36,630 nt of DNA from Desulfuromonadales bacterium (lineage in GTDB: Bacteria; Desulfobacterota; Desulfuromonadia; Desulfuromonadales; BM103), in contig JAQYVY010000035.1 of assembly GCA_030145195.1 (NCBI GenBank), positions 1 to 36,630 on the forward strand, read 5' to 3'. Below the pieces are notes generated by a model, which was not told the origin of the DNA, ran no database searches, and was given only the letters and a program-made list of their open reading frames with translations. Below are positions 9,066 through 34,588 of this stretch, piece by piece (within the stretch, counting starts at the first letter, position 1; the number at the start of each line of letters is the position of its first letter). The translations under genes were made by a program, and so were the position numbers.

Positions 9066-9089
9066 CTGCCACCGTGTTTCTTTGGGCGT

Positions 9090-9137: not shown

Positions 9138-9139
9138 CG

Positions 9140-9203
9140 GGAAGACTACAGCAGACCTCTTAGCGCCTCTGCGTCTTTGCGTTAAATAGTTGTTTTTATA
9201 TAA
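9140..9203. repeat. CTCTGCGTCTTTGCGTTAA dispersed repeat, first copy
   Basis: The stretch with CCTCTGCGTCTTTGCGTTAA (around 9166-9185) plus its flank is repeated almost exactly at 9516-9581. Its reverse complement resembles the element at the right end of the window (36494-36589). It immediately precedes repeat copies C and D. Confidence 0.7.
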
Positions 9204-10392: not shown

Positions 10393-10908
10393 TTATTTGG
10401 GCGCGACTTGTAAGAGTTCGAGCAGCCCCTGCAACAGTTGCAACGGGGTCGGTGGACAACCGGGAATCACGGCATCCACCGGTATGACGTTGGCGACCGG
10501 ACCACAGCTGGCATAAGTCTCGCCGAATTCACCACCACAGGCCGCACAGTCGCCCATGGCGACCACCAGCTTGGGTGATGGCATCGCAGCATAGGTTCGC
10601 TTGAGTGCCGCCTGCATATTACGGGAGACGACCCCGGTCACCAGCAGCAGGTCAGCGTGTCGCGGCGAGGCCACGAAGTGGATGCCAAACCGCTCTATGT
10701 CGTAAAAACTGTTGTTGACGGCATGCATCTCTAGTTCGCAGGCGTTGCATGATCCGGCATCGACCATCCGAATAGCGAGACTGCCGCCAAAGCGTGCGGC
10801 AATCGCTTTTTGACAGGTGGCGCCAAGTTCGACCACGGCCTGATCAGGCGATGGAATCGTCTCGGTTAAACGGCCGGTACGACGAATTTTATTGAAGATG
10901 CGAAGCAT
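10393..10908 (-). CDS. hyfI: Ehr/hydrogenase-4-like small subunit (NuoB/HyfI type), cluster I
   Basis: The 171-residue protein is of the complex I NuoB / hydrogenase small subunit family, which holds the cluster next to the active site. The four ligands of that 4Fe-4S centre are present: C54 and C57 in GSCNACE, C121 in GDCAACGG, and C151 in PGCPP. It lacks the N-terminal ferredoxin-like part found in its cluster II homologue. An AGGAAA lies about 10 bases before the ATG, and 27 bases separate it from the large-subunit gene upstream. It is the last gene of cluster I and stops at the edge of the repeat array. By family it should receive or donate electrons at the hydrophilic arm of a membrane complex; its partner large subunit has no NiFe site, so it is an Ehr-type rather than a true hydrogenase subunit. 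Confidence 0.88.
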   Translation of the reverse strand: MLRIFNKIRRTGRLTETIPSPDQAVVELGATCQKAIAARFGGSLAIRMVDAGSCNACELEMHAVNNSFYDIERFGIHFVASPRHADLLLVTGVVSRNMQAALKRTYAAMPSPKLVVAMGDCAACGGEFGETYASCGPVANVIPVDAVIPGCPPTPLQLLQGLLELLQVAPK

Positions 10909-10935
10909 GGTAAGCGTTTCCTAAAAAACAAGAAG

Positions 10936-12540
10936 TTACAGATCTTGTCCGGCATAAGAGCCATTCACAGATTTATTGCACACAGGAAAATCAGGCACGA
11001 TATTGCCGAGAATCAACCGTTCCAGAGCTGGCCAATTGAGCCAGCTTGGATCACGGGGAAAATAGCGCACAACCCGCCCGGCTTCATCAAGATGGAGATA
11101 CGCTACGGTTTCTCCCCGCCAGCCTTCAATCAGGCCAAGCCCCTCGCAACTTTGACCGCAAGGCTCGCAATCGACCTGCAAAGGACCTTCAGGGAGAGTT
11201 TGCAGCAGTTGTTCGAGCAAGTTGAGAGACACCAGAATTTCATCACCACGCACCCGCACCCGCTTGGCGACATCGCCTTCAAGGTAGGCCGGAACATCAA
11301 CAAGCAACTGGTCGTAAGGGGCATAGGGGGCATCACGCCGCAAATCGTCCTGATGATTGCTGGCTCGACCAACGTAACCGAGGGTACCCAACTGTCGCGC
11401 CAGCTCTACCGACAGAATCCCGGTCGTGCGCAACCGTTCCTGCAGGGAGGGATATTCCAGCAGCAGGGGCATCAATTCTTCGACCTCGGCTCGTAGTTCG
11501 ACCAGATCATGGAACAGCTCCGGCAGCCTCTCTGGGGGAATATCGCAGGCAACGCCACCGGGGATCACCCGATCCATCAGCAGGCGATGCCCGAAAATCT
11601 CCAAGCTCCGCCGCTGCCAGAGCTCACGCAGGCGACTGCACTGCACCAGGGCGAAGGTAAAACCGACATCATTGCAGACGGCGCCGATATCGCCCAGATG
11701 ATTGGCAATCCTTTCCCGTTCGCACAAAATGGCCCGCAGCGCCAGCGCCCGTGGCGGAGGGTCAACCCCCAAAGCTCGCTCGGCGGCCTGACAAGCGGCC
11801 CAGCTGTGTGCCACCGTACTGTCACCAGACAACCTTCCGGCCAAACGGGCCAGTCCGGTCAGATCGCGGCCCTCGGCCAACTTCTCGACGCCACGGTGCA
11901 CATAACCAAGATGCGCTTCGAGCCGCAAAACATCCTCACCTTCCGCCTGGAACCGGAAATGCCCCGGTTCAATAATCCCGGCATGCACCGGCCCGACCGG
12001 TATTTCGTAAATCCCCTCGCCGGAAACCGGCACGAAGGGATAATCGCAGTCCGGTGGCGTCTCTGCTAATGGTGAACCGGACAGTGGAAAGTCCTTGCGC
12101 AACGGAAAGTCTTTTTCTGACCAGCCCTGGTGACGGGTCCAGCGGCGCGGATCGGGGTGGCCGATAAACCGGATGCCAAACATATCCTGAACATGGCGCT
12201 CGGGTCGATTGGCCGCAGGATAACTCGACACTTGGGACGGCAGTTCCGGTTGCTCCTCGGGCAGGCTGGTGCGCAGCAGCAAATGGCCATCACCTCCAGC
12301 AAACAGGGCAAACAGCTGAAAGCCGGGCGATAGATGCTCACCCCAGACCGCCGACCAGCGCAAGTCCTGTTCAACGGCAAGTGCCGCAACCCGGCCCCAG
12401 TCCTCTTTCGGAACGGTAAGTCCAACCGTTACGCCGGGCAGAGCAACGCACTGTTCCGCGCGGACACCGCCCTCGGTCAGGACGGAAGCAAACTCGGCGG
12501 TCTTTCCCGGAGTCACCCACATCGGTTGCGTGCTTCTCAT
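10936..12540 (-). CDS. hyfG: Ehr-type large subunit (HyfG-like, NuoC+NuoD fusion), NiFe ligands lost, cluster I
   Basis: The start is ATG 12540, overlapping the previous stop as ATGA, giving 534 residues; a longer frame upstream is only antiporter-gene shadow. Residues about 1-170 are the NuoC-like 30-kDa domain (RPERHVQDMFGIRF), the rest the NuoD/HycE-like domain (GPVHAGIIEPGHF, LGYVHRGVEKLAEG). In true group 4 hydrogenases the block after this has CGxC; here it is S238-G-D-S241. The C-terminal CxxC is S528-Y-A-G531 within NKSVNGSYAGQDL. All four metal cysteines are therefore absent, and no hyp maturation genes are nearby. This matches the 'energy-converting hydrogenase related' (Ehr) proteins reported from Geobacter and others. 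The catalytic partner is unknown; the pocket may bind a quinone-like or other redox molecule, which is inference. Confidence 0.87.
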   Translation of the reverse strand: MRSTQPMWVTPGKTAEFASVLTEGGVRAEQCVALPGVTVGLTVPKEDWGRVAALAVEQDLRWSAVWGEHLSPGFQLFALFAGGDGHLLLRTSLPEEQPELPSQVSSYPAANRPERHVQDMFGIRFIGHPDPRRWTRHQGWSEKDFPLRKDFPLSGSPLAETPPDCDYPFVPVSGEGIYEIPVGPVHAGIIEPGHFRFQAEGEDVLRLEAHLGYVHRGVEKLAEGRDLTGLARLAGRLSGDSTVAHSWAACQAAERALGVDPPPRALALRAILCERERIANHLGDIGAVCNDVGFTFALVQCSRLRELWQRRSLEIFGHRLLMDRVIPGGVACDIPPERLPELFHDLVELRAEVEELMPLLLEYPSLQERLRTTGILSVELARQLGTLGYVGRASNHQDDLRRDAPYAPYDQLLVDVPAYLEGDVAKRVRVRGDEILVSLNLLEQLLQTLPEGPLQVDCEPCGQSCEGLGLIEGWRGETVAYLHLDEAGRVVRYFPRDPSWLNWPALERLILGNIVPDFPVCNKSVNGSYAGQDL

Positions 12541-14003
12541 AACAGCCCCTTGCCAACGACCATCGTCGTCGCCTGGTCGATCCAGCTCGCCAGCACACCC
12601 GGGATGGCAATGCCGAGCCAGAGGACTAGCAACAGGTGCAAAATGACCGGCCACATGTTGGCCTTGACTGCGACTTGCCCCGCAGGCGGCTCGCCAAAAA
12701 CCATCGGTTGAACGTGGCGGAACAGCCCGGCAAAAGCAATGCCCAGACTGCACAGCAACGGTATGACCAACCATGGCCAGCTCTTGATCGTCGCGGTAAA
12801 GAGTAAAAACTCGCTGGTAAAAACCCCGAACGGCGGGAAACCGGCAATCGCCACGGTGCCGAGCAGAAAGCACCAGCCGACCGCAGGCTGAGTGCGGATC
12901 AAACCACGAATTTTGTCAATCGACTGGGTTCCGGCGACATGGGCAGCATGGCCAACAGTGATAAAGATTGCTGATTTGGTCAAGGAGTGGACAATCATGT
13001 GCAGCAGCGCGCCAAAGGTCGCCAAGGGTCCGCCAATGCCAAAAGCGAAGGTCATCAATCCCATATGCTCGATCGATGAGTAGCTGAACATCCGCTTGAC
13101 ATCGCGCTGGCGATGCAGCAAAAGGCTGGCCACGACAAATGAAAGCAGACCGAAACCCATCATCATATTGCCAGCCAGGTTGCTGCCGAGGGCCGGGTCA
13201 ATCAACATCTTGAAGCGCACCACCGCATAAAGCGCAACATTAAGCAGCAAACCGGAGAGGATCGCCGACATCGGCGTCGGCCCTTCAGAATGGGCGTCCG
13301 GTAGCCAGTTATGCAGCGGGACCAAGCCAATTTTGGTGCCGTAACCAACCAGCAGGAAGACAAAGGCCAGGGTCAACACGGCCGGTTCCAGTTCAGTGGC
13401 ATGCTGATGCAAAACACTCCAGAGCAACGATTCCTCGCTGCCAGGAAGAACCCGTTCTGCCGCAAAGTAAATCAGCACCGTGCCAAAGAGCGCCTGGGCG
13501 ATACCGACCCCGCAAATCATAAAATACTTCCAGCCAGCTTCAATCGATTCCGGGGTCCGGTAAAGACTGACCAGCAGCACGGTCGCCAGAGTCGCACCTT
13601 CCACTGCAACCCAAAGCAGGCCGAGGTTGTTGGTCGACAAAGCCACCAGCATGGTCAGCAGGAAGCCCTGATACATCGAATAGTAGAGGCGCATGCGTTG
13701 GTCATCGACGCGACCGATCTCCAATTCGTGAGCCATATAAGGACCGGAAAAAACCGCCGTAGTCATACCGACAAAGGCATTGAGCAGAATCAGATAGACG
13801 TTAAAGGCGTCGACATAAAACATTTTGTCGGGAGAGAGTAGCGGCCCCTGGTTAAAAACATCGATGGCCAGCAACAGTGAAGTCACAAAGGTGGCCGTGC
13901 AGATCGCAAGGTTGATGGCACCGGCCGAACGCCAGTGTCCGATCAGCGAGAGCAGCAGGGTTCCAAAGAGGGGCAGCACCAAGGTCAGGTAGAGGGCACT
14001 CAT
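12537..14003 (-). CDS. hyfF: Ehr/hydrogenase-4 component F-like antiporter subunit, cluster I
   Basis: A 488-residue, highly hydrophobic NuoN/MrpD-type proton or ion channel subunit with about 14 membrane segments. Family residues visible are E135 in WVAVEGAT, K159 in AGWKYF, and K224 in YGTKIGLVPLHNWLPDAH. The lysine usually found in the next helix (as in LIKTGIYG of the HyfB-type subunits) is replaced by Asn255 in LLLNVALY. The start overlaps the preceding stop by one base (TGATG), and the end overlaps the large-subunit ATG (ATGA), so all three are translationally coupled. It should form one of the ion-translocating modules of the cluster I complex. Confidence 0.88.
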   Translation of the reverse strand: MSALYLTLVLPLFGTLLLSLIGHWRSAGAINLAICTATFVTSLLLAIDVFNQGPLLSPDKMFYVDAFNVYLILLNAFVGMTTAVFSGPYMAHELEIGRVDDQRMRLYYSMYQGFLLTMLVALSTNNLGLLWVAVEGATLATVLLVSLYRTPESIEAGWKYFMICGVGIAQALFGTVLIYFAAERVLPGSEESLLWSVLHQHATELEPAVLTLAFVFLLVGYGTKIGLVPLHNWLPDAHSEGPTPMSAILSGLLLNVALYAVVRFKMLIDPALGSNLAGNMMMGFGLLSFVVASLLLHRQRDVKRMFSYSSIEHMGLMTFAFGIGGPLATFGALLHMIVHSLTKSAIFITVGHAAHVAGTQSIDKIRGLIRTQPAVGWCFLLGTVAIAGFPPFGVFTSEFLLFTATIKSWPWLVIPLLCSLGIAFAGLFRHVQPMVFGEPPAGQVAVKANMWPVILHLLLVLWLGIAIPGVLASWIDQATTMVVGKGLL

Positions 14004-14677
14004 CAGTCGACCTCGTTCAGGCGGTTCAGATGGTCGACATTCAAAGAGCCAATCCCGTTACGAATCTGGAAGAAGAAGACACCGAACAGGATCGCCGCCA
14101 CCAGAACATCAAAAGCCACTCCCAGTTCGACGACCATCGGCATGCCGTAAGTTGCCGAGACCGCAGCGAACATCAGACCGTTCTCCATCGACATAAAGCC
14201 GATCACCTGAGCAACAGCCTTGCGCCGGGTGATAATCATGAGCATGCCGATCAGAATAACGGCGAGTGAAATGGCGATGGTATTACGCGTTGAAAGCATC
14301 GATAGTTCGCGAATTGGCAACGCCACATAATAGCTGAACAGCACCAGCGCACCGGCCCCGATCATGATGAGTGAGGAGCTGCCAACCGTTTCAACGTCAC
14401 GTCGGATATCCAGCCGAACCACTAACCTGCGCAGCTGCCAGGGAATGAAGAAAACCTTGAGAGCCAGAGTTAAACCGGCAGAAATCAACAAGTGATGTCG
14501 CCCTGAAACAATCGCGACCAAAACCGTGGCGAAGAAGAGCAGTGCGCCCTGCCAGGCAAAGGTGTGAATAAGCGTGACGATGCGCGTCTGGGCCAGCAAC
14601 AAAAACGAGGTAAAGAGGATCAGGGCCGCCAGGGTCAAAATCATCTGTTCAGAAAGGGGTAAAGCGGCCATCTGCAT
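14003..14677 (-). CDS. hyfE: Ehr/hydrogenase-4 component E-like membrane subunit, cluster I
   Basis: A 224-residue membrane protein with about seven predicted helices. Its C-terminal half (ITRRKAVAQVIGFMSMENGL) is characteristic of HyfE, which contains a NuoK/MrpC-like part with conserved glutamates along the ion path (E191 is not assigned here; the clear one is in SMENGL). It starts one base after the stop of the HyfC-like gene, with GGAGGTGC just upstream, and ends in the TGATG overlap with the F subunit. In complex I-like machines this subunit sits between the NuoH-like subunit and the antiporter subunits. Confidence 0.85.
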   Translation of the reverse strand: MQMAALPLSEQMILTLAALILFTSFLLLAQTRIVTLIHTFAWQGALLFFATVLVAIVSGRHHLLISAGLTLALKVFFIPWQLRRLVVRLDIRRDVETVGSSSLIMIGAGALVLFSYYVALPIRELSMLSTRNTIAISLAVILIGMLMIITRRKAVAQVIGFMSMENGLMFAAVSATYGMPMVVELGVAFDVLVAAILFGVFFFQIRNGIGSLNVDHLNRLNEVD

Positions 14678-14678
14678 C

Positions 14679-15623
14679 TCAGCGCACCTCCAGGATAACG
14701 TGGCTCAGCATACCGAGCAGGCAGAGGATAAAGGCCAGGCCGAGAAATTGTGGAACCCGGAAGAACCGCATCTTGGCCAGGCTGGTTTCCGCAACCGCGA
14801 GGACGACCCCGAGTACAGCCAGTTTGCCGGTGATTGCAACCAGTCCGATGGCCAGGGCCAGCGGGGTCAATTCGAGGGCGATGCCCCAGGGGATGAAGAG
14901 GTTGGCGATTAAAACCCCGTAGATCATTAATTTGAGCATGGCCGCCCATTCCATCAGGGCCAGGTGGCGACCGCTATATTCGAGAATCATCGCCTCGTGG
15001 ATCATGGTTAATTCGAGATGAGTTGCCGGGTTATCGACCGGGATGCGGCCCGTTTCTGCCACCGTGACCAGCAGAAGGCCCATGCCGGCAAAGATGAAGG
15101 ACGGATAAAGCTGAAAGGGTTCGACCAGCAAATGACTGATCATGCTCGCCAGATTGGTACTCGACACCGTCATCGCCAGAGTGAACACCGCCATCAGGAT
15201 TGCTGGCTCGGCCAGCGAGGAGATCGTCATCTCGCGAGAGGAGCCCATGCCGCCGAAGGCCGTACCGACATCCATACCGGCCAGGGCGAGGAAAAAACGG
15301 GCCAGGGCAAAAAAGCCAACCAACACAATGACATCGGCGATCGCCGAGGTCGGCAGGCCAATCGCGACAAAAGGCATCACTGAACCAGCCAGGGCCGTTA
15401 CACTGAAAACCAGGTACGGGGCCATCCTGAACACGGGCGAGGCCTGTTCGGAAATAACAATATCTTTGCGGAACAATTTGGAGAGGTTGCGATAGGGTTG
15501 CCAAGGAGAAGGCCCCTGCCGACATTGCAGTTTGCACTTGACCCATTTGACCCAGCCCGCCAGAAAAGGCGCGCCAAAAGCGAGCAGACCCGCCTGAATA
15601 ACTGCCAACGCCCAACCGTTCAT
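14679..15623 (-). CDS. hyfC: Ehr/hydrogenase-4 component C-like (NuoH type) subunit, cluster I
   Basis: From ATG 15623, which overlaps the HyfB-like stop as ATGA, the protein has 314 residues; the frame opens four codons earlier, but the coupled start fits the operon. It is the NuoH/HycD family subunit that joins the hydrophilic arm to the membrane arm. The conserved loop ETGRIPVDNPATHLELTMIH, followed by EAMILEYSG, is intact; in NuoH this loop and its acidic residues line the quinone cavity and start the proton path. About eight membrane helices are expected. The intact loop suggests the membrane coupling machinery works although the large subunit lost its metal site. Confidence 0.88.
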   Translation of the reverse strand: MNGWALAVIQAGLLAFGAPFLAGWVKWVKCKLQCRQGPSPWQPYRNLSKLFRKDIVISEQASPVFRMAPYLVFSVTALAGSVMPFVAIGLPTSAIADVIVLVGFFALARFFLALAGMDVGTAFGGMGSSREMTISSLAEPAILMAVFTLAMTVSSTNLASMISHLLVEPFQLYPSFIFAGMGLLLVTVAETGRIPVDNPATHLELTMIHEAMILEYSGRHLALMEWAAMLKLMIYGVLIANLFIPWGIALELTPLALAIGLVAITGKLAVLGVVLAVAETSLAKMRFFRVPQFLGLAFILCLLGMLSHVILEVR

Positions 15624-17629
15624 ACGATCACCCACAGCAGAAAGAGCAGAGTCACGAAGGAGTAGGCCAGATAGACCCGAATATTGCCGCCCTGGATCAA
15701 AGCTGCACGCTTGGCACTGGCCAGAAGAACCCGACCGATGACCAAGTAAATTTTCTGCCAGGCCCAGTCGCCAACCTTCAGGTGGCGCCCGCCACCAGGG
15801 TTCTCCGCCGTCTCCGGCTCAATCCGTTCTTCGATCGGCCAGACCGGCTGGAAGATGCGCCGGATCGGCATGGCAAAGGCGGTTGCCGTGTATTGCATGC
15901 GCGCATTCAGGGGGCCGAATCCGCAATCCCAGGTGGCTCCGACCTGCACCGACGTTTTGCGACGCCGGGGGTGCAGTCGGAGATAAACGAAGAGCCAGGC
16001 CAAGCAAATGCCAAGTAGAACCATCGGTGCCCCGTAGGAGGCTGTTTGCGCTCCGACCGGAGTTAACCAGAGCCAGCCCCCCGCTGTGGCTTCAGGCAAG
16101 CCAACGCCGAGCAGCATCAAGGGGATATTGCTGATCACCCCGACTGTCCAGGTTGGAAAAATCCCGAAGACCAGACAGAGCAGTGCCAGGATGCCCTGGC
16201 CAATCAACATGCCGGGAGCCGCCTCTTTGGCTGCCAGTGACTGCTTGCTTCGGGCCTGCCCAAGGAAAGCAACGCCGAACACCTTAACGAAACACGCTGC
16301 GGCCAGGGCCCCGGTCAGCGCCAACACGGCAGCCGCGACCGGAATCAAAGAACCGAGGATGCCACTCTTCAGGGCTGTCCCCTGCAGGGCGGCCTGAAAA
16401 GTCAGCCATTCTGAGACAAAACCGTTAAAAGGGGGCAACGCCGAAATGCTGATACAGCCGATCAGGAAACAGCCGGCGGTCACCGGCATGCCGCGAATCA
16501 GCCCACCCATCTTCCCCAGATCATGTTCATGACTTTGCTGCAGGATAGCGCCGGCACCGAAAAACAACAGGCTTTTGAACAGGGCATGATTTAACGAGTG
16601 GTAAAGAGCCGCCACTAGCCCCAGAGCGGCCAGACCAGGCAAATCGTTGCTGGCAAAAATCATCGACAAACCGAGGCCGATATAGATAATGCCGATATTC
16701 TCGACACTGTGATAAGCCAGCAGGCGTTTCAGGTCATGTTGCATCAGCGCATAAAGGACACCGAGAAGTGCGGAGGCACAGCCGATCAGAAGAACAATCA
16801 GCCCCCAGGACCAGTGCACTTCGCCGAGGAGGTCAAAAGTAAAACGGATGAAACCGTAAACCGCCACCTTGAGCATAACCCCAGACATCATTGCCGAGAT
16901 GTGCGACGGGGCAACGGGGTGTGCTTCCGGTAACCAGACGTGCAGGGGGACAAGACCTGCCTTGATTCCAAAGCCTAGCAGCGCGAGGGCAAAAGCAACG
17001 CTTCCCCAGCCCAGGGACAATTGAGCGGCGGCCATGTGCGTGAAGTCAAAGCCATCGCCGAATCCTGCCAGAACGCCGTAAGCGAGCAGGATCAGCAGGG
17101 CACCAACATGCGACATCAGTAAGTAAATAAAGGCTGCGCTTCGGTTGCGCTCATGCTGATGCTGGTAAACCACCAGCATGTAGCCGCTGATGGACATTAA
17201 TTCCCAGCCGAGCATAAAGGTAAAAGCATCGGCGGCGAGCAGGACCAGGTCCATGCCGAGCACAAACAGCGCGGTAAAGATCGTCAGGGGGAGCAAAAAC
17301 TGCGGTCCCTGCTCATATTCACGCACATATGCTGGGCCGTAGACCGCAGCAACCACGGTTACCAGGCCAACGATCACCATAAAAAAGCCGCTGAGGGGGT
17401 CGAGATGCAGATGGCTGTGCAGCCAGGGGAGGCCAACGGGCAGGGTCAGGTTGTACGAAGCGCCTTGAAGCAGGGCTAGGCCGCCGCCGGCTATCCCGGC
17501 AAGACCGGCAAGGCCGAGCAGGAGGAAAGCAATCGTTTTGATGGCACGATTGCGGTTGCCACAGAGAAGCGGCAGCAGCGCCGAAGCCAGCGCAAAGAGG
17601 AGGGCAATCCAGGCAAGTGTCAACGGCAT
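15620..17629 (-). CDS. hyfB: Ehr/hydrogenase-4 component B-like antiporter subunit, cluster I
   Basis: A 669-residue NuoL/MrpA-like membrane subunit and the first gene of cluster I. Key family residues are E143 in GWELMSISGY, K223 in GIKAGLVPLHVWLPEAH, K254 in VMLKVAVYG, and K352 in NHALFKSLLF. The C-terminal cytoplasmic part has the HyfB-type block TWDCGFGPLNARMQYTA. GAGGAG lies about 12 bases before ATG 17629. It begins after a 397-bp gap that separates it from cluster II, so it probably has its own promoter. It ends with an ATGA overlap to the C subunit. It should conduct protons or sodium in the cluster I complex. Confidence 0.9.
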   Translation of the reverse strand: MPLTLAWIALLFALASALLPLLCGNRNRAIKTIAFLLLGLAGLAGIAGGGLALLQGASYNLTLPVGLPWLHSHLHLDPLSGFFMVIVGLVTVVAAVYGPAYVREYEQGPQFLLPLTIFTALFVLGMDLVLLAADAFTFMLGWELMSISGYMLVVYQHQHERNRSAAFIYLLMSHVGALLILLAYGVLAGFGDGFDFTHMAAAQLSLGWGSVAFALALLGFGIKAGLVPLHVWLPEAHPVAPSHISAMMSGVMLKVAVYGFIRFTFDLLGEVHWSWGLIVLLIGCASALLGVLYALMQHDLKRLLAYHSVENIGIIYIGLGLSMIFASNDLPGLAALGLVAALYHSLNHALFKSLLFFGAGAILQQSHEHDLGKMGGLIRGMPVTAGCFLIGCISISALPPFNGFVSEWLTFQAALQGTALKSGILGSLIPVAAAVLALTGALAAACFVKVFGVAFLGQARSKQSLAAKEAAPGMLIGQGILALLCLVFGIFPTWTVGVISNIPLMLLGVGLPEATAGGWLWLTPVGAQTASYGAPMVLLGICLAWLFVYLRLHPRRRKTSVQVGATWDCGFGPLNARMQYTATAFAMPIRRIFQPVWPIEERIEPETAENPGGGRHLKVGDWAWQKIYLVIGRVLLASAKRAALIQGGNIRVYLAYSFVTLLFLLWVIV

Positions 17630-18779: not shown

Positions 18780-18791
18780 CTTGATGACTCC

Positions 18792-20306
18792 TTAAAGATC
18801 AAAGCCGCAATAGGAGAGGTTGAAACTCTTGTTGCACAACGGGAAGTCCGATATCTGCTGGCCGCGCAACACCATTGCCAGACCGCTCCAGTTATGGAAC
18901 GAGGGGTCGACAATCTTATAGCGGGCCAGTTTCCCGGCACCGTCAGTAATGCCGACATGAACCACTTCGCCACGCCAGCCTTCACAGACTGAGAGAGCCA
19001 GGGAATCGGCAGCCAGGGGTCCGAGAGAACGTTGATCCTCCCCCTCCGGAAGGCGTTTGATAAGATCCCGGATCAAATCATGCGAGGCATAAATTTCTTG
19101 ACGGCGGACGTTGCCGCGCGCAAAGACGTCGCCATCAGTATCAATCACCGGGGTATCGAACTCTCTTTCTGCGACCGGATGGTGAAGACGGGCATCACGC
19201 ATCAAACCGCAGGCCCGGGCGGCAACTCCGACCAACCCCAGGGTTTCCGCATCATCAGTAGAGAGTCGGCCAGTGCCCTCAAAGCGGGCCAGCACCGAAG
19301 GGCTATCGAAACAGAGTTCAACTGCACCGCGAGTCTCCGGTTCGAGGACCGCGAGCCGCTGCAGCAGTTTCTCCTGCAGGGGCAGATCCAGGTCAAAAGC
19401 GACGCCTCCCGGGCGCACCAGACCGCGACCAAAACGGCTGCCGCAGAGTTCTGCCGTGAGGTTGAGATAGTCACCACGCAACCGACCACAGAAAGAGGCG
19501 GTCGGCAGATAGCCAACATCCCCAGCCATGGCGCCAATGTCGCCAATATGGTTGGCGAGTCTTTCCAGTTCCAGAGCGATGGCGCGTACGCTGTAGGCAC
19601 GGGACGCAACCTCAACTCCAGCCAAACTTTCCAGCACTTGGCTGTAGGCAGTTGTATGCCCGATAGTGGTATCTCCGGCAGCCGCTTCCATCTGGTGGAT
19701 GCTGGCCGGATGGGGGCCACCAATCAACTGCGGTTCAAGGCCGCGGTGCTGGAAGCCAAGGGAGATTTCGAGACTCAGAACCTCCTCGCCGTGGCACTGG
19801 AAACGGAAGTGTCCAGGTTCAATGACCCCGGCGTGCACCGGACCGACCGCCACCTCATGAACGCCAGCCCCTTCGACGCGGTAAAAATCCATGTCGCCGG
19901 GAATCGGGTGCTGCTGTGGATCGCGCCTCCAGATGTCGGCAGCATCGACCCAGCTGTTGTGGAAACGGACCGGCTTCAGCCACGGATGACCTTCTGGAAG
20001 GACGCCGTACTGCTCGGCGATTTCTCGCTCGAAGAGGTGGAGCTGCGGACAATCAGGGGTCAGTGCAGGATAGACATCGCCGACCCGACAGTGCAAAAGA
20101 GCGAATTCCTCCCGCCAGTCATGGGCCAGAATTGCGTACAGATCGAAACCGTCGTCAGCAGGCATAGCAAAAAAACTGGCAACCCGGCCGTCTCCGGCGA
20201 TTTCTTCAAGCAAAGATTCGCGAAACTCCGTGAAATCAAGGCATGGCAACTCCTTGAGTGAAATGCACGCTCCGTGGGTGAAACGGATCAGTTTGGAGCG
20301 GTTCAT
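18792..20306 (-). CDS. hyfG: Ehr-type large subunit (HyfG-like, NuoC+NuoD fusion), NiFe ligands lost, cluster II
   Basis: 504 residues: an N-terminal NuoC-like domain (HLFEREIAEQYGVLPEGHPW) followed by a NuoD/HycE-like domain (VGPVHAGVIEPGHFRFQ, LGFQHRGLEP). The first NiFe motif is changed to A210-G-D-T213 in EAAAGDTTIGH, and the C-terminal one to S498-Y-C-G501 in NKSFNLSYCGFDL; so none of the four metal cysteines is in place, although nearby Cys491 and Cys500 exist. It starts in an ATGA overlap with the F subunit and ends 12 bases before the small subunit. It diverges clearly from its cluster I counterpart, which suggests two distinct complexes, not a recent duplication. The substrate is unknown. 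Confidence 0.87.
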   Translation of the reverse strand: MNRSKLIRFTHGACISLKELPCLDFTEFRESLLEEIAGDGRVASFFAMPADDGFDLYAILAHDWREEFALLHCRVGDVYPALTPDCPQLHLFEREIAEQYGVLPEGHPWLKPVRFHNSWVDAADIWRRDPQQHPIPGDMDFYRVEGAGVHEVAVGPVHAGVIEPGHFRFQCHGEEVLSLEISLGFQHRGLEPQLIGGPHPASIHQMEAAAGDTTIGHTTAYSQVLESLAGVEVASRAYSVRAIALELERLANHIGDIGAMAGDVGYLPTASFCGRLRGDYLNLTAELCGSRFGRGLVRPGGVAFDLDLPLQEKLLQRLAVLEPETRGAVELCFDSPSVLARFEGTGRLSTDDAETLGLVGVAARACGLMRDARLHHPVAEREFDTPVIDTDGDVFARGNVRRQEIYASHDLIRDLIKRLPEGEDQRSLGPLAADSLALSVCEGWRGEVVHVGITDGAGKLARYKIVDPSFHNWSGLAMVLRGQQISDFPLCNKSFNLSYCGFDL

Positions 20307-21727
20307 GGATGCACCTCCAGCAGCGCCGCGGCTTGGCTCAGAGCCTTTTGTAGCGGCTCAGGGATATAGACCCCGAGCAGTAAAATCAGCAACATGAACA
20401 TCAACGGCGGCAAATAGAGCAGAGGACGGTCGCGAAAGTTGTCGTTTTTGGGCCCGCTTTCCCCCTGAGTTGCAGCGAGCACCGTGGCGCCCATGCCAAT
20501 GAAAACCGTTGCCAGAGAAAGCAGCACCAGCACACCGACCACCATCTGATGATTGGCGAAGATGCCGCGCAGAATCGTGAATTCACTCAAAAACGGCCCA
20601 AAGGGAGGTGATCCGGTGATGGCGAGAAAACCGGCCAGAAACAGGGTTCCGGAAATAGGTAGGCCGACAATTGCCCCGCGCACCTCCGACAATCTTTTAC
20701 TGGAATACGCCCGTTGGATGTTGCCGGCGGCGAGAAACAACCCGCCCTTGGTCAGGGCATTGTTGATCAGGTGCAACATGGCACCGAAGGTCGCCAGTCC
20801 ACCGATACCGACTCCGATGGCGAGCAGACCCATATGCTCTACGGAGGAATAGGCCAGTAGTCGCTTGATGTCAGGCTGACGGACCATGAAAACCGCGGCC
20901 AGCAGCAGCGAAAGGATCCCCATCCAGAGCAGTGACTGGCGGGCCATGGCACCATCACCGGCAGCGGTCATCAACTGCACCCCGCGCAGAATGCCGAGAA
21001 AGGCAACGCTGGTCAATCCGCCAGCGAGCAGGGCCCCGACCAATCCAGGAGCTTCACCATAAGCGTCCGGTTTCCACGTGTGCAGGGGCGCGAGTCCCAT
21101 CTTGGTACCAAAGCCGACCAACAGAAAAACGAACCCGGCATGCAGCCAGGGCTTGCTGAGACTGGTTGCCGTAGCGAGCAAAGAGTCAAACTGCAGGCTG
21201 ACTGGAGCGCCCCCTCCGAGCGCCGCATAAGCGATGAACAGCATCCCGAGCATCGCCAGAGCAATCCCTACGGAACAGAGCAGCAGGTATTTCCAGGTCG
21301 CTTCAATTGACAGTCGGTTGCGATTGAAGTAGATCAGCGGTGCGCTACAGATAGTGGTCGCTTCGACTGCCATCCACAAAAGCCCCAGGTGCCGGGCGGC
21401 AATTGCCAACGTCATGAACGAGAGAAAGGCCAGCAGACAGGGGACCATAACCTTGTTGCCGCGATCTCGACGCAGGTCAAGATAGCCCACCGCATAGATG
21501 GCGCAGCCGAAAAAGAGCAGGCTGGTCACCACCAGCACCAGGCGCGAGAGGGCATCGAGCCCGACCCAGGCCCCTCCCGCCGGGAAAGACCCCGATACCA
21601 GCACTATCGACAGCGCCAGGTGGAGACCGCTGCTGAGGGGCAGCAACCAGGAACGCAGTTGGTACCAGGGAAAGACCAGGCTGAGGGCGGCCGCAGCCAG
21701 TGGAGAGAGAATCAGAAGTTCGAGCAT
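20303..21727 (-). CDS. hyfF: Ehr/hydrogenase-4 component F-like antiporter subunit, cluster II
   Basis: A 474-residue NuoN/MrpD-type membrane subunit. Conserved positions are E122 in WMAVEATT, K146 in ATWKYLL and K209 in GFGTKMGLAPLHTWKPDA. The usual next-helix lysine is absent (LLAGGLTSVAFLG), as in the cluster I F subunit. A later lysine occurs in NNALTKGGLFL. AAGGA precedes ATG 21727; the gene follows the E subunit by four bases and overlaps the large subunit by ATGA. It probably forms the ion channel nearest to the E and C subunits. Confidence 0.88.
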   Translation of the reverse strand: MLELLILSPLAAAALSLVFPWYQLRSWLLPLSSGLHLALSIVLVSGSFPAGGAWVGLDALSRLVLVVTSLLFFGCAIYAVGYLDLRRDRGNKVMVPCLLAFLSFMTLAIAARHLGLLWMAVEATTICSAPLIYFNRNRLSIEATWKYLLLCSVGIALAMLGMLFIAYAALGGGAPVSLQFDSLLATATSLSKPWLHAGFVFLLVGFGTKMGLAPLHTWKPDAYGEAPGLVGALLAGGLTSVAFLGILRGVQLMTAAGDGAMARQSLLWMGILSLLLAAVFMVRQPDIKRLLAYSSVEHMGLLAIGVGIGGLATFGAMLHLINNALTKGGLFLAAGNIQRAYSSKRLSEVRGAIVGLPISGTLFLAGFLAITGSPPFGPFLSEFTILRGIFANHQMVVGVLVLLSLATVFIGMGATVLAATQGESGPKNDNFRDRPLLYLPPLMFMLLILLLGVYIPEPLQKALSQAAALLEVHP

Positions 21728-21731
21728 CGTA

Positions 21732-22370
21732 TTATTCCTTCAGATCCGACAGTCTTTGGGTGCCGATACTGGTGAATTCGCGGTTGATCTGGTTCATGAC
21801 AATGCCCATGACAAAGATACCGACCAGAAGGTCGAGCAGCACGCCGGCTTCAACCATCAGTGGCATGGCCTCGCTGAGCAACACGCCGATAATAAAGATC
21901 CCGTTTTCCAGCATCAGATAACCAAGCACTTGGGTGATCGCCTTGCGCCGGGTGATCAACAGCAGAAATCCGGCAAACATGGTCGCCAGGGCCGTTGGTA
22001 CATATAAGCCTCCATGGTGTTCGGCAACCAGCGGCAGAAAATCGGAGAAAAGGAAAGCCCCCGCAGTGGTCAGGGCGCCTAAGATCAACGTCGGCACAAA
22101 ACCGATCAGCGGTTCAACTTCGCGACGGATGCGCACCTCGCGAATAGCCCGGATCAACAGCCAGGGGATTAAGACGCCCTTGAAGCTGAAAGCGCCAATC
22201 GCCAGCAGGACCGCGTGGCCAGTAATTCCATGCGTTGTCAGGGGGAGCATTGCCAGTAAGGCCCCCTGAAAGGCAACGATCCGGATGCAGGCCACCAGAC
22301 GGGCACTCCCCAGGGTAAAAAAGTTGATCAGGATCACCACAAGCAGAAGCGGATTGGTTAAGGGCATCAT
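21732..22370 (-). CDS. hyfE: Ehr/hydrogenase-4 component E-like membrane subunit, cluster II
   Basis: A 212-residue membrane protein with about seven helices; its C-terminal half reads LLITRRKAITQVLGYLMLEN, the HyfE/NuoK-like signature. GGAGG lies eight bases before the ATG at 22370; a second ATG follows directly, so the exact start could be one codon later. A 56-bp gap separates it from the C subunit, the longest gap within cluster II. It is similar in order and length to its cluster I homologue. Confidence 0.85.
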   Translation of the reverse strand: MMPLTNPLLLVVILINFFTLGSARLVACIRIVAFQGALLAMLPLTTHGITGHAVLLAIGAFSFKGVLIPWLLIRAIREVRIRREVEPLIGFVPTLILGALTTAGAFLFSDFLPLVAEHHGGLYVPTALATMFAGFLLLITRRKAITQVLGYLMLENGIFIIGVLLSEAMPLMVEAGVLLDLLVGIFVMGIVMNQINREFTSIGTQRLSDLKE

Positions 22371-22426
22371 GATTTAAGCCTCCGGAGACAATGAACAAAG
22401 GAAAAACAGCCGGGTGGGCAAAGTGT

Positions 22427-23341
22427 TCATCGCAGCACCAGCACCAGGGCAAAAATTGAGAGCAGTGAGGTTCCGATCAGGACCTGTGGTACGCGCGGCA
22501 GACGCAGTCGCGCCATACTTGATTCAATCACCCCGATAAGCACCGCAACGCCGATCTGCCCGGCCAGAAACAGCCCCACGTCACCCAACCACCAGCCCGT
22601 TTGCCAGGGAAGCGCCAATTTGACCAGAAGAGCGCTGAGCACCATCATTTTTAGGGCGGCGCCATAGAGGATCATGGCCAGGGCCGGACCACTGTGATCC
22701 AGCACCATGACTTCGTGAATCATGGTCAACTCAAGATGCGTGTTGGGGTCGTCAAACGGGATACGTGAATTTTCCACCAGCAAGACCACAAACAAACAGA
22801 CCAGGATCAAGCTGAGCGAGGCACCAGCTTCGCTTTGCCATGCCGTGAGCAGATGTGAACCGAGCAGGGTATTGAGCGACAAACCATCAGAGAGCCGTGC
22901 CAGAACCAAGAGTGAAAAGAGCACGGTCGGTTCGGCCAGGCAGGAGAAGGTCACTTCGCGCACCGCTCCCATGCCTTCGAAACTTGAGCCGGTATCGAGC
23001 GCCGCCAAGGCGGTAAAAAAGCGTGACAGGCCGAACAGGTAGACGAACAGGATCAGGTCGCCCTCGAAGGAAACCGGTGCCGGCAAAGCCCCAAAGGGAA
23101 TCAGCAATGCTGCTAACAGCGGAACCACTAGGCCAACCACCGGACCAGCGAGAAAGACCCATGTGGTCGTTCGGCTGAAGACAAACCCTTTGCGCCATAG
23201 TCGGGCCAGATCAAAATACGACTGCAGCAGCGGGGCACCAATTCGACCGCCGAAAAGGGCCTTGGTTTTGGTGATGATCCCCAGCAGTAGCGGGGCAAAC
23301 AACAGTAACAGGGCCAGATGCAGAAACAGTCCGCCAATCAT
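22427..23341 (-). CDS. hyfC: Ehr/hydrogenase-4 component C-like (NuoH type) subunit, cluster II
   Basis: A 304-residue NuoH/HycD-family membrane protein with about eight helices. The coupling loop is intact: ENSRIPFDDPNTHLELTMIH, then EVMVLDHSG. AAAGGA stands before ATG 23341, 13 bases after the second B subunit. By family it connects the Fe-S arm with the antiporter-like subunits. Retention of the acidic loop residues supports an ion-pumping complex. Confidence 0.88.
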   Translation of the reverse strand: MIGGLFLHLALLLLFAPLLLGIITKTKALFGGRIGAPLLQSYFDLARLWRKGFVFSRTTTWVFLAGPVVGLVVPLLAALLIPFGALPAPVSFEGDLILFVYLFGLSRFFTALAALDTGSSFEGMGAVREVTFSCLAEPTVLFSLLVLARLSDGLSLNTLLGSHLLTAWQSEAGASLSLILVCLFVVLLVENSRIPFDDPNTHLELTMIHEVMVLDHSGPALAMILYGAALKMMVLSALLVKLALPWQTGWWLGDVGLFLAGQIGVAVLIGVIESSMARLRLPRVPQVLIGTSLLSIFALVLVLR

Positions 23342-23354
23342 GACAGAATCCTTT

Positions 23355-25322
23355 TTAGAGTAACAACAGGGCCATCAAGGCCAACATGGTTAAGACAACA
23401 TAGAGTAGATAAAGAGCGAGGGAGCCATTCTGCACAGCGGCACGCACCTTCCAGAAAAACCAGGCAAAAGCTTTGAACAGCGGGGTCAGGATTCGATCAA
23501 GCACCGCATCCGGGGTGTGACTCGCAAAGGTGGTTTGCCGCGGGAACAGCCCCTTCACCGCGCCACCATGACGTTCACTCCAGAGTCCAAAATCAAACAG
23601 CCGCACCAGGGTGTCAGCAAAGGAACTTGCGGTGTATTGAATGCGCGGCGACGGAAACTGAAAACCGCAGCCCCAGGTTCCGATCTCACGAGGGGTCATT
23701 CGGCTGCGACTGCGCAACCAGAGAGTCACTAATGTAAGGAGTGTCAGTAGTAGCCAGCCAGACAAACTGACCCAGCTGAGTGGCGCCATAGCAGTATCCG
23801 CGCCGGCTGTTGTAGCACTTGCCGACCAGACGGCAACCGCTCCACGCAGCAGCGGCAGCAGGGTGGTGGGTAGCAGGCCGATCCACGCACAAGCCGCCAG
23901 CAACAGAACCATTGGAGCGACCATTGACTTTGGGGCCTCATGGGCATGTGCGGCAGCTTCGCTGCGGGGTTCACCAAGAAACGTCACGCCGAAGACCTTG
24001 ACGAAGCAGGCCAGCGCCAGACCACCAATCAATGCCAGCGCCGGGACGACAATCACGGCCAGGCGCAGCGCCGGGACGCCCTCTTTCAGGGTCTGGAAAG
24101 CCCCGATGTAGATCAGCCACTCGCTGACAAAGCCATTGAACGGGGGGAGACCGCTGATCGCCACCGCACCACCGAGAAACAGAGCCCCGGTCCATGGTTG
24201 GTGTTTCAGCAAACCGCCGTAATGATCAATCTCCCGCGTACCGACGGCATGAATGACCGAGCCGGCGCCGAGAAAGAGTAAGGATTTGAACAGACCATGG
24301 TTGGCCACATGCAGCAGACAACCTGCCAGACCGAGGGCGACCAGTTCCGGAAGATGGTAAGCGCGGCCCAACAGCGCGAGCCCTAGGCCAAGGGCGATGA
24401 TTCCGATATTCTCCACGCTGTGATAGGCCAGCAGGCGTTTGATGTCGTGCTGGGCCAGAGCCAGGGCGACCCCCATGATGCCGGAGATGATGCCAGCGCT
24501 CAGAATCGTCCATCCCCACCAGGGCGGAATCTCGGCAAAGAGTGAGGTGAGTCGGACCAAGCCGTAAATGCCGGTTTTGATCATCACTCCGGAGAGAAGT
24601 GCCGAAGCATGACTGGGGGCCGCAGCGTGCGCTCCAGGTAGCCAGATATGCAGAGGCATCAGCCCGGCTTTCATGCCGAAACCAAACAGCCCGAGGAGGA
24701 AAATTGCTCCGCTCAGCGTGGCGGGCAGGCTCCCTGCGGCGCTAAAAGCGAGTGAACCGGAAACCTCACCGATTAATGCGAACATGGCGAACAGCGCCAG
24801 CGTCCCGGTGTGGGTGGCAATCAGATAGATGAACCCGGCGCGACGCACCTCTTCTTTGTGATCCTCGGTGGTAATGAGAAAATAGCCGGCCAGGGCCATC
24901 ACTTCCCAACCCATCAGAAAGAGCAGACCGTTGCCAGCGGTGAGAAGAAGCATCATCGCTCCGCTGATCAGGCCGTAAAACAGTCGCAGTTTGCGGCCAT
25001 TTCTGGGGTTCTCCTGTTGTGGCCAGTAACGCAGGCCGTAAACAGAGCCGGTGGCTACGACGAGAAACAGCGGCAACAGAAAGACGGCAGAAAGAGGGTC
25101 GAGGCGCAGCGCAAAAGAACCTCCCGGAACGGACCAGGCCAGACTGAGACCAGGCACCTTTGCCGTCGCCAGAGCCGCAACGACAGCCGTCAGCCCGCTG
25201 GCAACGCCGGCCAGAGTCAACAGGCAGGCAAGGCCTTCTCCGCCAGAACCCTCGCGGCGGCAGAAAAGCCCCGGGACGCCAGCCAGGCTGATGAGGACGA
25301 TAGCGCTGAGAAACAAGCTCAT
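23355..25322 (-). CDS. hyfB: Ehr/hydrogenase-4 component B-like antiporter subunit, second of the cluster II pair
   Basis: The start is ATG 25322, two bases beyond the stop of the preceding gene, with GGGGAGG upstream; the frame is open for another 40 codons, but that part overlaps the preceding gene and is rejected. 655 residues. Family residues: E140 in MGWEVMALAGY, K218 in GMKAGLMPLHIWLPGAH, K249 in VMIKTGIYG, K346 in NHGLFKSLLF. The C-terminal block TWGCGFQFPSPRIQYTA is HyfB-like. It is a full-length, apparently functional second copy beside the first B subunit, not a degraded duplicate. Confidence 0.9.
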   Translation of the reverse strand: MSLFLSAIVLISLAGVPGLFCRREGSGGEGLACLLTLAGVASGLTAVVAALATAKVPGLSLAWSVPGGSFALRLDPLSAVFLLPLFLVVATGSVYGLRYWPQQENPRNGRKLRLFYGLISGAMMLLLTAGNGLLFLMGWEVMALAGYFLITTEDHKEEVRRAGFIYLIATHTGTLALFAMFALIGEVSGSLAFSAAGSLPATLSGAIFLLGLFGFGMKAGLMPLHIWLPGAHAAAPSHASALLSGVMIKTGIYGLVRLTSLFAEIPPWWGWTILSAGIISGIMGVALALAQHDIKRLLAYHSVENIGIIALGLGLALLGRAYHLPELVALGLAGCLLHVANHGLFKSLLFLGAGSVIHAVGTREIDHYGGLLKHQPWTGALFLGGAVAISGLPPFNGFVSEWLIYIGAFQTLKEGVPALRLAVIVVPALALIGGLALACFVKVFGVTFLGEPRSEAAAHAHEAPKSMVAPMVLLLAACAWIGLLPTTLLPLLRGAVAVWSASATTAGADTAMAPLSWVSLSGWLLLTLLTLVTLWLRSRSRMTPREIGTWGCGFQFPSPRIQYTASSFADTLVRLFDFGLWSERHGGAVKGLFPRQTTFASHTPDAVLDRILTPLFKAFAWFFWKVRAAVQNGSLALYLLYVVLTMLALMALLLL

Positions 25323-25324
25323 CT

Positions 25325-27319
25325 TCAGCCTCCCCGGCCGCCGGCCCAGATACTCCAGGCCATCAGTACCGCGCTGGCGATAAAAATATAAAACAAGTAA
25401 ACCGAGAGTTGCCCCTGCTGCAGCCAGCGCAGCCGCTGACAACGCTCAGCGATGCCGGTGAACAAGGGATGCAGCAGGCGAACCAGCACCGGGTCAGTTG
25501 ATTCCTGATGCAGACGGGCAGGAGCCGGGAAAGGCCCGACGATATGGCCCCCGTTGACTGTCGGTCGCATAAAAGCCGGGAGTAAGTGCCAGGCAGCAAA
25601 TTCCCCATACCCCTCACCGGTGTATGACATGCGCGGCGAGGGGAAACGATAGCCGCACCTCCACGTTGTGCCTTGCGCCAGAGGTCGGTGTCGGCGGATC
25701 ACAAACAGCAAGCCCGCTGTCAGCAACAGGATGGCAACCAACAGCAAGGCAGCAAAACCAAGTGGAGCCACCTGTTGCCCGAGACCGGCGATCATCTCCG
25801 GGGACGTTTGAACCACCTGGGAGAGAGGCCGGGCCATCAGTCGCAGGGCACCCTGTGGATAAAGACCGATAGCGAGACAGCCCGTCAGCAGCGTGCCCAT
25901 ACTGAACAGCATGACAGGATCGGCTTCGCGGGCCGTGGCCGCGCCTGGATCGCGCGGTTCGCCGAGCAAACAGATACCAATCAGCCGGGTGAAGGTGACC
26001 AGGGCCAGAGCGCCAACCAGGCCGAGCAAGCCGAACAGCAGCAAAGGCGCAAGGGCACCGAAACCAACGACTCCTGCTCCGGCACGGGCCAGGCTGATGT
26101 AGATCAACCACTCACTGACCAGACCATTGAACGGTGGCAGGGCCCCGATGGCCAGACTACCGCCAATCCAAAGCAACCCGGCCAGCGGCATGCGGCGCAG
26201 AAGCCCACCCATGCGGTTCATGTCGCGTGTACCGGTGGCGTGCATGAGTGTCCCGGCACCGAGGAACATCACCCCCTTGAAGAGGGCATGATTCCAGAGA
26301 TGCAACAATCCGCCGGCAAACGCCAGCAGGGCCAACTGCGGGTGCCCTTCGGCGGTCGCCACAATGCCGAAGCCGAGGCCTAAAAAGATGATTCCGATGT
26401 TTTCAACCGTTGAATAGGCCAGACACCGCTTGATGTCACGCTGCTGCGCGGCCAGAGAGATGCCGTAAAGGGCACCGGCCCCGCCAAGCAGAGCCATCAG
26501 CCACCCCCACCAGGCCGGAGCCGCTGGCAGCAGGCTGACCACGCGCAAGATACCGTAAATGCCCGTCTTGATCAGCACCCCCGACATCAGGGCTGAAACA
26601 TGACTGGGAGCAGCAGGATGGGCGTCAGGCAACCAGATGTGGAGGGGAAAGAGCCCCGCTTTGACACCAAAGCCGAACAGCGCCAGAAGATAGAGAATCG
26701 AAGCACTACCAAGGGGTATCCGGGCGAGCGGCCCGAAGTCGCTGAAGTTGAAGCTATTGCAAATGTCGCCAGCCAGTAAAAAAAGCGCCAGCAACAGCAT
26801 CATGCCGAGATGAGCTGCCAGCAGATAGAGCCAGGCAGCCTTGCGTACTTCGGCCTGGCGATGATCCCAGGCAACCAGGAAGAAGGAGGTCAGCGTCATC
26901 ATCTCCCATGTGGCGAGAAACAGGACCGCATTGGCCGCAGTCACAACCAGCAGCATGGCCGCCACCATCAACAGAAAGAAGAACCAGTGCGAGGAGAGAG
27001 AGCGCTGTTGACCACTATGACGCATGTAGGGGCCTGCGTAGAGAGCACAGAAAAGCGAGAGGAGGGAAATCGGCAGCACAAAAAAAGCCGCCAACGGGTC
27101 GATCAGCAGCGCAAATTCACCACCTGGCACCGACCAGGGCAACGATTGTCTCAGCACCTCACCGGTGAGCAGAACATGCAGTGAAGACGTCAGGGCAAAG
27201 AGGCAAGCCGTTACCGTTGCCGCAGTTCCCACCCATGAGGCCAGAGAGGAACGGCGAATGGCCAGTGCGGCCAGGCTACCCGTCAGAAGAATCAATAATG
27301 CAATGTTAAAAAAATTCAT
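25325..27319 (-). CDS. hyfB: Ehr/hydrogenase-4 component B-like antiporter subunit, first of the cluster II pair
   Basis: A 664-residue NuoL/MrpA-like subunit, the first structural gene of cluster II. Family residues: E139 in ATWEMMTLTSF, K220 in GVKAGLFPLHIWLPDAH, K251 in VLIKTGIYG, K348 in NHALFKGVMF. The C-terminal part has the block TWRCGYRFPSPRMSYTG. No clear ribosome-binding site stands before ATG 27319. It begins 42 bases after the HTH-EIIA regulator gene, so it may be read from the regulator's promoter. With two B and one F subunit, cluster II has three antiporter-like modules, as complex I has, while cluster I has two. Confidence 0.9.
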   Translation of the reverse strand: MNFFNIALLILLTGSLAALAIRRSSLASWVGTAATVTACLFALTSSLHVLLTGEVLRQSLPWSVPGGEFALLIDPLAAFFVLPISLLSLFCALYAGPYMRHSGQQRSLSSHWFFFLLMVAAMLLVVTAANAVLFLATWEMMTLTSFFLVAWDHRQAEVRKAAWLYLLAAHLGMMLLLALFLLAGDICNSFNFSDFGPLARIPLGSASILYLLALFGFGVKAGLFPLHIWLPDAHPAAPSHVSALMSGVLIKTGIYGILRVVSLLPAAPAWWGWLMALLGGAGALYGISLAAQQRDIKRCLAYSTVENIGIIFLGLGFGIVATAEGHPQLALLAFAGGLLHLWNHALFKGVMFLGAGTLMHATGTRDMNRMGGLLRRMPLAGLLWIGGSLAIGALPPFNGLVSEWLIYISLARAGAGVVGFGALAPLLLFGLLGLVGALALVTFTRLIGICLLGEPRDPGAATAREADPVMLFSMGTLLTGCLAIGLYPQGALRLMARPLSQVVQTSPEMIAGLGQQVAPLGFAALLLVAILLLTAGLLFVIRRHRPLAQGTTWRCGYRFPSPRMSYTGEGYGEFAAWHLLPAFMRPTVNGGHIVGPFPAPARLHQESTDPVLVRLLHPLFTGIAERCQRLRWLQQGQLSVYLFYIFIASAVLMAWSIWAGGRGG

Positions 27320-34575: not shown

Positions 34576-34588
34576 CGGGGAAGATGCT

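Follow-up and report, generated by a model that had tools for sequence, protein, structure and literature searches.

Two Ehr operons without NiFe ligands in a Desulfuromonadales genome: candidate ion pumps with transport-type companions

We analyzed a 36,630-nucleotide stretch of a Desulfuromonadales genome (GCA_030145195.1, contig JAQYVY010000035.1, positions 1 to 36,630; hereafter, the window), in which two operons, cluster B and cluster A, encode energy-converting hydrogenase-related (Ehr) complexes. We suggest, tentatively and with a probability of about 0.45, that they are two ancient Ehr complexes acting as Fe-S-fed, complex I-like ion pumps with a small carrier, probably a quinone, in the old NiFe pocket, and serving ion homeostasis. 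This reading draws on the lack of a complete CxxC motif in 100 of 100 large subunits, eight invariant pocket residues, the kept proximal-cluster cysteines, the conserved residues of the NuoH-like and antiporter subunits, the fold, which resembles that of formate hydrogenlyase (FHL), and the tree. It also draws on neighborhoods with SulP genes and with a gene for a helix-turn-helix (HTH) protein carrying an enzyme IIA (EIIA) domain of the phosphotransferase system (PTS), hereafter HTH-EIIA.

In the proposed mechanism, a small soluble donor (ferredoxin or a flavoprotein would be candidates) feeds electrons into a shortened Fe-S wire. The electrons would pass two clusters in window cluster B, or one in cluster A, and reach the former NiFe pocket. 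A small organic carrier, most likely menaquinone, would react there, and Glu191 and Asp291 are candidates for relaying its protons. The pocket reaction would power ion flow through the NuoH-like and antiporter subunits, or be powered by it; we infer both the carrier and the direction of the reaction. The HTH-EIIA protein would make ehr expression respond to an ion signal or a phospho-relay, and the whole complex would serve the ion homeostasis of the cell.

The Ehr type is already known. What is new here is the conservation of the pocket, the trimming of the wire, the presence of two old lineages next to each other, and the transport-type companions. Ehr complexes without NiFe ligands and with an open role are described in PMC6349859, PMC10284858, PMC10432482, PMC7894505, and PMC13194489. 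By its description, rather than by sequence, Geobacter sulfurreducens Ehr (GSU0739-0745) resembles cluster B in having seven genes (EhrA twice, plus EhrB, C, D, L, and S, some of them named in PMC7894505), and its NiFe site is lost as in both window clusters (PMC13194489). Compared with it, cluster A lacks hyfB2 and the ferredoxin-type domain, and window cluster B lacks outer-cluster ligands. The hyfBCEFG(I) clusters of Acidithiobacillus share gene names with the window clusters, again a likeness of description and not of sequence; the A. ferrooxidans one was classed as non-hydrogenase (PMC7735108).

NiFe site and pocket of the large subunits

The initial annotation had described 13 genes of hydrogenase-4/complex I type in two runs, with replaced NiFe ligands and intact NuoH-like coupling loops, and had called them Ehr. 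All 13 genes are present within 10393-27319, every one on the minus strand, and both operons hold the gene set typical of group 4 hydrogenases: antiporter-, NuoH-, and HyfE-like proteins with a large and a small subunit. The Ehr identity was borne out, since both large subunits are related to group 4 hydrogenases and lack the NiFe-binding cysteines. In the alignment with relatives, the charged residues of the NuoH-like proteins and the Lys/Glu residues of the antiporter-type proteins are conserved, in agreement with intact coupling loops and an ion-pump architecture.

For the NiFe site, we aligned the window proteins with Escherichia coli HycE and HyfG (CGIC / DPCYSC), with five large subunits of NiFe type from relatives, and with eight Nuo/Fpo-like sequences. 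The four cysteine positions fell without gaps on S238-G-D-S241 / S528-Y-A-G531 in the cluster A large subunit (10936..12540, minus strand, 534 aa) and on A210-G-D-T213 / S498-Y-C-G501 in that of cluster B (18792..20306, minus strand, 504 aa), exactly the motifs first read from the letters. The numbering for cluster A, used throughout, assumes a start at the ATG at 12540, overlapping the hyfF stop; this protein has a 30-kDa-type N-terminal part. Neither window protein has the two CxxC motifs of [NiFe] group 4 hydrogenases, and no shifted CxxC was seen, which rules out displaced NiFe cysteines.

We then considered 100 Ehr large subunits collected by means other than motif searches. Of these, 60 came from the window and the loci numbered through L124 (L numbers being our locus handles and G numbers those of genomes), and 40 from a methanotroph order. 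None of them has a complete CxxC at either NiFe site. Position 238 is S in 51, A in 46, C in 2, and T in 1; position 241 is T in 79, S in 19, and A in 2; positions 528 and 531 are S and G in 99 each, and A in the remaining one. That the complexes are hydrogenases whose nickel ligands have moved or are of an unusual kind would agree with the kept formate hydrogenlyase fold and gene set. However, given the gap-free alignment of all four positions to Ser/Ala/Thr/Gly in the window and the 0/100 count, we regard it as extremely improbable.

Two further ideas on the NiFe loss were dropped. The C-terminus lies at the equivalent of Leu534 in 100/100 Ehr large subunits, but the five NiFe-type relatives also stop right after the last motif; thus, this end does not set Ehr apart, and a lost C-terminal maturation peptide is no mark of it. 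A cell free of nickel enzymes is an unlikely cause, because four other contigs of the genome carry matches to the NiFe-hydrogenase family, counted at the family level.

Among solved structures, E. coli formate hydrogenlyase subunit 5 (7z0s_E) is the top match for each of the two large subunits. For the cluster A protein, an AlphaFold model built from 31 sequences (predicted local distance difference test, 87.4; predicted template modeling score, 0.91), has the FHL fold, with a template modeling score of 0.91 to 7z0s_E. E. coli formate hydrogenlyase and hydrogenase 4 (HycE, HyfG) are the nearest solved relatives, a sister clade with the same gene set and fold; unlike Ehr, they have the NiFe cysteines, and they have a separate HycF/HyfH ferredoxin subunit. 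Ehr membrane subunits pass the cut-offs of 'hydrogenase 4' models, and predictions of H2 metabolism can be misled by them.

Eight residues are invariant in all 100 motif-free sequences: Asp240, Asp284, Asp291, Asp497, Asn522, Lys523, Asn526, and Tyr529. In a wider set of 141 Ehr rows, twelve residues are near-invariant at a 97% cut-off and occur in 0/7 NiFe and 0/8 Nuo/Fpo-like rows (Ile190, Phe197, Glu208, Asp240, Asp284, Asp497, Phe518, Asn522, Lys523, Asn526, Ser528, and Gly531). From this set, 81 rows came from a motif-seeded search: the 80 named loci are the best 80 of at least 574 found with the patterns PVHAG[IV]IE and DFP[LV][CN]NKS, so the pattern columns are conserved in them by construction. 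These Ehr-only residues are a simple way to tell Ehr from hydrogenases. Asp291, which corresponds to Nqo4 Asp139 of complex I, is present in 141/141 Ehr and 8/8 Nuo/Fpo-like rows and in 0/7 NiFe rows, and Glu191 shows another pattern (140/141 Ehr, 7/7 NiFe, 0/8 Nuo/Fpo-like). As far as alignments can tell, the pocket is conserved and mixes hydrogenase and complex I features; judging from homologues, all the named residues would lie in one cavity.

This conservation bears on the view that the complexes are decayed, nonfunctional remnants under relaxed selection. Geobacter Ehr was called nonfunctional because its NiFe site is missing, according to PMC13194489. The invariant pocket residues argue against it: Ehr-only residues are unchanged in 100/100 large subunits, and complete Ehr operons occur in many phyla. 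We find decay hardly credible.

Shortened Fe-S wire and two lineages

The four cysteines of the proximal cluster are kept in the small subunits of both types (51/51 B; 83/83 A, once four NuoBCD rows were taken out of group A). They include a CxxC in A and B, whereas the NuoBCD rows have a tandem CC, the pattern of cluster N2 of complex I. The cluster B small subunit (18027..18779, minus strand, 250 aa) begins with a ferredoxin-type domain that has the ligands of a single cluster; a NuoB-like domain with the proximal cluster follows. In this ferredoxin-type domain, C51, C70, C73, and C76 are kept in 51/51 B rows; following the usual pattern of 2[4Fe-4S] domains, we take them to be the ligands of an inner, N6b-like cluster. 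The outer-cluster ligands are also present in 40 of 50 B rows by a script's count, and some or all are lost in the other ten (the window, L044, L045, L048, L051, L059, L062, and L091, with L060 and L064 listed apart). The cluster A small subunit (10393..10908, minus strand, 171 aa) consists of the NuoB-like domain with the proximal cluster, and no A row has the ferredoxin-type domain.

By these ligand counts, the wire is trimmed at its outer end, most B having three clusters, window B two, and A one. The small-subunit ligands, annotated at first as intact, are so for the proximal cluster of A and B. Beyond it, the statement did not hold: in window B, the ferredoxin-type domain retains the ligands of one cluster out of two, and in A this domain is absent. 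The shortened wire bears on the interconversion of hydrogenases and complex I. Ehr shares the overall architecture of complex I (NuoB/C/D/H/K/L-M-N) and Asp291, but differs at the His38/Tyr87 positions of Nqo4, in its proximal CxxC, and in lacking an NADH module, which domain scans of the window genes did not find in either operon.

A further proposal places Ehr in a complex with formate dehydrogenase. Such a complex was put forward for sibling lineages of Cyanobacteria (PMC6349859) and is hinted for Geobacter, where more Ehr protein was reported on formate (PMC7894505). However, formate dehydrogenase was absent among the scanned window genes and the recurring neighbor groups, a scan that did not cover every neighbor. 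Moreover, A lacks the outer clusters that would take up the electrons, and window B has half of them; we consider this arrangement improbable.

Mbx and MBS are also group 4 relatives that lost the NiFe site. Like them, Ehr might use its altered site to pass electrons on to NAD(P) or sulfur compounds. Neither was named among the PDB matches listed, although the Mbh chain 6cfw_L was. Mbx is mentioned in PMC6349859; still, an enzyme of this type seems rather unlikely to us.

For the origin of the tandem, we searched 58 genomes (the window's and 57 relatives). A was found in 8 and B in 28 (in G049 cut by a contig end), and both in only three: the window's, G043, and G056. G434, outside those 58, has A, the HTH-EIIA gene, and B, arranged in another order. 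More widely, Ehr-type large subunits occur across the phylum of the window and in Pseudomonadota, Nitrospirota, Myxococcota, and Verrucomicrobiota; a scan of viral contigs turned up no relatives.

A tree of large subunits was built from 73 of 156 rows, namely every A row through L124, one in four of the remaining A rows, roughly one in two of the B rows, and 15 outgroup rows. It is a quick tree whose support values are not bootstrap values, and the meeting of its long outgroup branches calls for caution. Ehr formed one clade (support 100) beside HycE/HyfG (95). B was one clade (100), and so was A (99), except for two verrucomicrobial rows branching lower. The A of this order, with one Desulfobacterales metagenome-assembled genome, grouped with Chromatiales, Methylococcales, and Burkholderiales rows (99). 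The A sequences from elsewhere in the class (L118, L122) grouped instead with Nitrospirota and Myxococcota.

Thus, the tree and the genomes with A only or B only rule out a fresh tandem duplication, as the divergence of the two sets had led the initial annotation to state. By their placement, A and B form two Ehr clades, both ancient and inherited separately, beside the FHL/Hyf branch of group 4 hydrogenases. The order's A falls in a mainly gammaproteobacterial clade, with same-class A elsewhere, which points to lateral acquisition of A by the order and to a tandem that arose secondarily.

HTH-EIIA and SulP companions

The HTH-EIIA gene (27362..28039, minus strand), just upstream of cluster B, belongs to the unit. 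Its product joins an excisionase-type HTH and a PTS EIIA domain and is PtsN-like, but under the PtsN cut-off (TIGR01419, 65.3 bits against 138.7). His136, presumed by its position to be the phosphorylation site, is kept in 21 of 22 aligned relatives. In the 58 genomes, 28 have Ehr and HTH-EIIA, 5 Ehr only, 5 HTH-EIIA only, and 20 neither (Fisher p 8e-7, with phylogeny ignored and a weak G010 match scored absent).

A wider draw retrieved HTH-EIIA in 53 of 394 genomes of the phylum (E <= 1e-35). We examined 40 of the 47 new places, leaving out G247, G363, G058, G174, G090, G395, and G122. Ehr-type genes adjoin or lie near it in 34 of the 40, 27 with the large subunit in the stretch and 7 with membrane subunits only. 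In the other six (L125-L130), among the most divergent HTH-EIIA, the next gene is a ClC channel with CBS domains. An HTH-EIIA of 35% identity also precedes A in two Nitrospirota loci. In the five relatives with HTH-EIIA and no Ehr, the next gene is SulP in four (one Pfam-scanned, three assigned by BLAST grouping) and DUF1275 in one. Across the order and the phylum, Ehr operons are usually accompanied by HTH-EIIA. The partners seen are always membrane proteins, of ion-transport type except DUF1275, and the divergent ClC pairs make this regulator type seem tied to ion-transport genes in general.

In nine loci (L108, L113, L114, L116, L117, L119, L121, L122, and L123), HTH-EIIA stands beside a hyfB-type antiporter gene that is separated from the other genes of the Ehr operon or points the opposite way. 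On its other side in the window lies a methionine sulfoxide reductase (SelR) gene (28305-28901, minus strand); an MsrB gene is also near HTH-EIIA in L095.

SulP genes are the second companion. One lies within ~700 bp in 12 of 146 Ehr stretches, the strands not all being the same (L098, L134, L136, L137, L138, L147, L148, L153, L158, L160, L162, and L206); nine of these are named methanotroph records. In L160 (Methylocaldum), SulP sits between hyfF and the large subunit. A-type Ehr is present in 70 of 151 genomes of the order of L160, and we examined 40 of its A loci, taken down the match list and skipping those near a contig start. SulP is directly upstream on the same strand (44-714 bp) in 24, inside the operon in 2, divergent in 1, present as fragments only in 2, and missing in 9; the remaining 2 loci end at a contig edge. 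The two counts are not independent, as genomes overlap (e.g., L246 = L160 and L221 = L158). The short SulP-like fragments of L241 (~3296-3744) and L242 (~9110-9331), upstream of or inside the Ehr operon where other methanotroph loci hold a whole SulP, look like remnants.

SulP of this family is found in 67 of the 70 Ehr genomes of the order and in 51 of the 81 without A-type Ehr. Since it is common anyway, adjacency and not presence stands out, and with one to three copies among thousands of genes it should, by our rough estimate, rarely arise by chance. All 40 loci being from one order, the adjacency may be a single old event kept in descendants.

These neighborhoods raise the possibility that Ehr is a pump driven by redox energy that works together with SulP to take up anions or inorganic carbon and to balance pH. 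NDH-1MS and DAB would be its analogues. Beyond the SulP positions in methanotrophs and in the 146 stretches, it agrees with the HTH-EIIA gene preceding SulP in four Ehr-less relatives, the one tested SulP being most like BicA (6ki1, E 7e-99). In A. caldus, moreover, a hyf cluster lies beside a beta-carbonic anhydrase, and its authors propose a role in pH/CO2 balance (PMC3826726).

However, the SulP neighbors score 464.9 (the SulP most like BicA), 121, and 104.3 bits, all under the BicA cut-off of 880, and methanotroph SulP is no closer to BicA than to DauA. Using one E. coli query, carbonic anhydrase was found in only 2 of 146 stretches (at 628 bp and 2.2 kb) and is no steady neighbor. The family's SulP is frequent without A-type Ehr, 9 of the 40 loci lack it, and no SulP lies near the window's Ehr, the genome's single copy being on another contig. 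Overall, we consider the anion or carbon pump doubtful. The same holds for a broader proposal: Ehr would be the engine of a widespread ion/anion (possibly bicarbonate) transport module, a hydrogenase-derived, complex I-like, Fe-S-driven pump encoded with SulP or exchanged for it. In one lineage, an EIIA-type regulator would precede it, and the two window complexes would be steps in trimming the wire to a single cluster. In the literature searched, no title or abstract described a link of HTH-EIIA or SulP to Ehr; both neighbors give a concrete handle on Ehr function.

Several observations speak against our preferred reading of Ehr as a quinone-reactive pump for ion homeostasis. A has one cluster left, so that the kept ligands are what points to a redox role for it. 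Five of the 33 Ehr genomes among the relatives lack the HTH-EIIA gene, most A loci outside methanotrophs have no steady neighbor, and neighboring genes may be co-regulated without working together. For the pocket, we take Nqo4 His38, Tyr87, and Asp139 to be quinone-site residues of complex I, and rely on homologues likewise for the roles of Glu191 and Asp291. The His38 and Tyr87 positions are Ile190 and Gly239 in Ehr, and the Ehr-only residues are mostly polar, rich in acids and amides, a poor fit to quinone. The early suggestion of a quinone in the vacated pocket thus gains from the Asp291 shared with complex I and loses from these two positions and the polar pocket.

Remaining genes of the window

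All genes of both operons are on the minus strand. Cluster B (seven genes, 27319 to 18027) has the order hyfB2, hyfB, hyfC, hyfE, hyfF, large, and small subunit. Two antiporter-type proteins with Proton_antipo_M domains come first: hyfB2 (25325..27319, 664 aa) and hyfB (23355..25322, ~655 aa, its start chosen directly past the hyfB2 stop), the latter like hydrogenase 4 subunit B but under the cut-off. They are followed by the NuoH-like hyfC (22427..23341, 304 aa; NADHdh, with conserved acidic and His residues), the HyfE/NuoK-like hyfE (21732..22370, 212 aa; weak Oxidored_q2), and the antiporter-type hyfF (20303..21727, 474 aa). In hyfE, Glu155 is kept in 49/49 and Glu174 in 48/49 B relatives. 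In L059, hyfB2 is present as short pieces only (8757-9186), beside an otherwise complete B operon.

Cluster A (six genes, 17629 to 10393) has the order hyfB, hyfC, hyfE, hyfF, large, and small subunit. Its antiporter-type hyfB (15620..17629, 669 aa) and hyfF (12537..14003, 488 aa) are over the cut-offs for hydrogenase 4 subunits B and F; between them lie the NuoH-like hyfC (14679..15635, 318 aa) and the HyfE/NuoK-like hyfE (14003..14677, 224 aa). The gap of ~400 bases between the clusters was scanned for promoters and terminators, and the matches were near chance level, including one promoter-like match on the right strand.

Finally, some further genes of the window lie on the plus strand. An AAA_13-type ATPase (1034-3268) strongly matches the candidate anti-phage defense family PDC-S06 (E 8e-285) and weakly PrrC, and a UvrD-type helicase (7131-9065) has weak matches to defense helicases such as GajB; the two may form a defense island. 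At 32335-36427, an acyl-CoA dehydrogenase-like gene is followed by one for an ETF-QO-like protein with an Fe-S domain, a possible electron-transfer pair.

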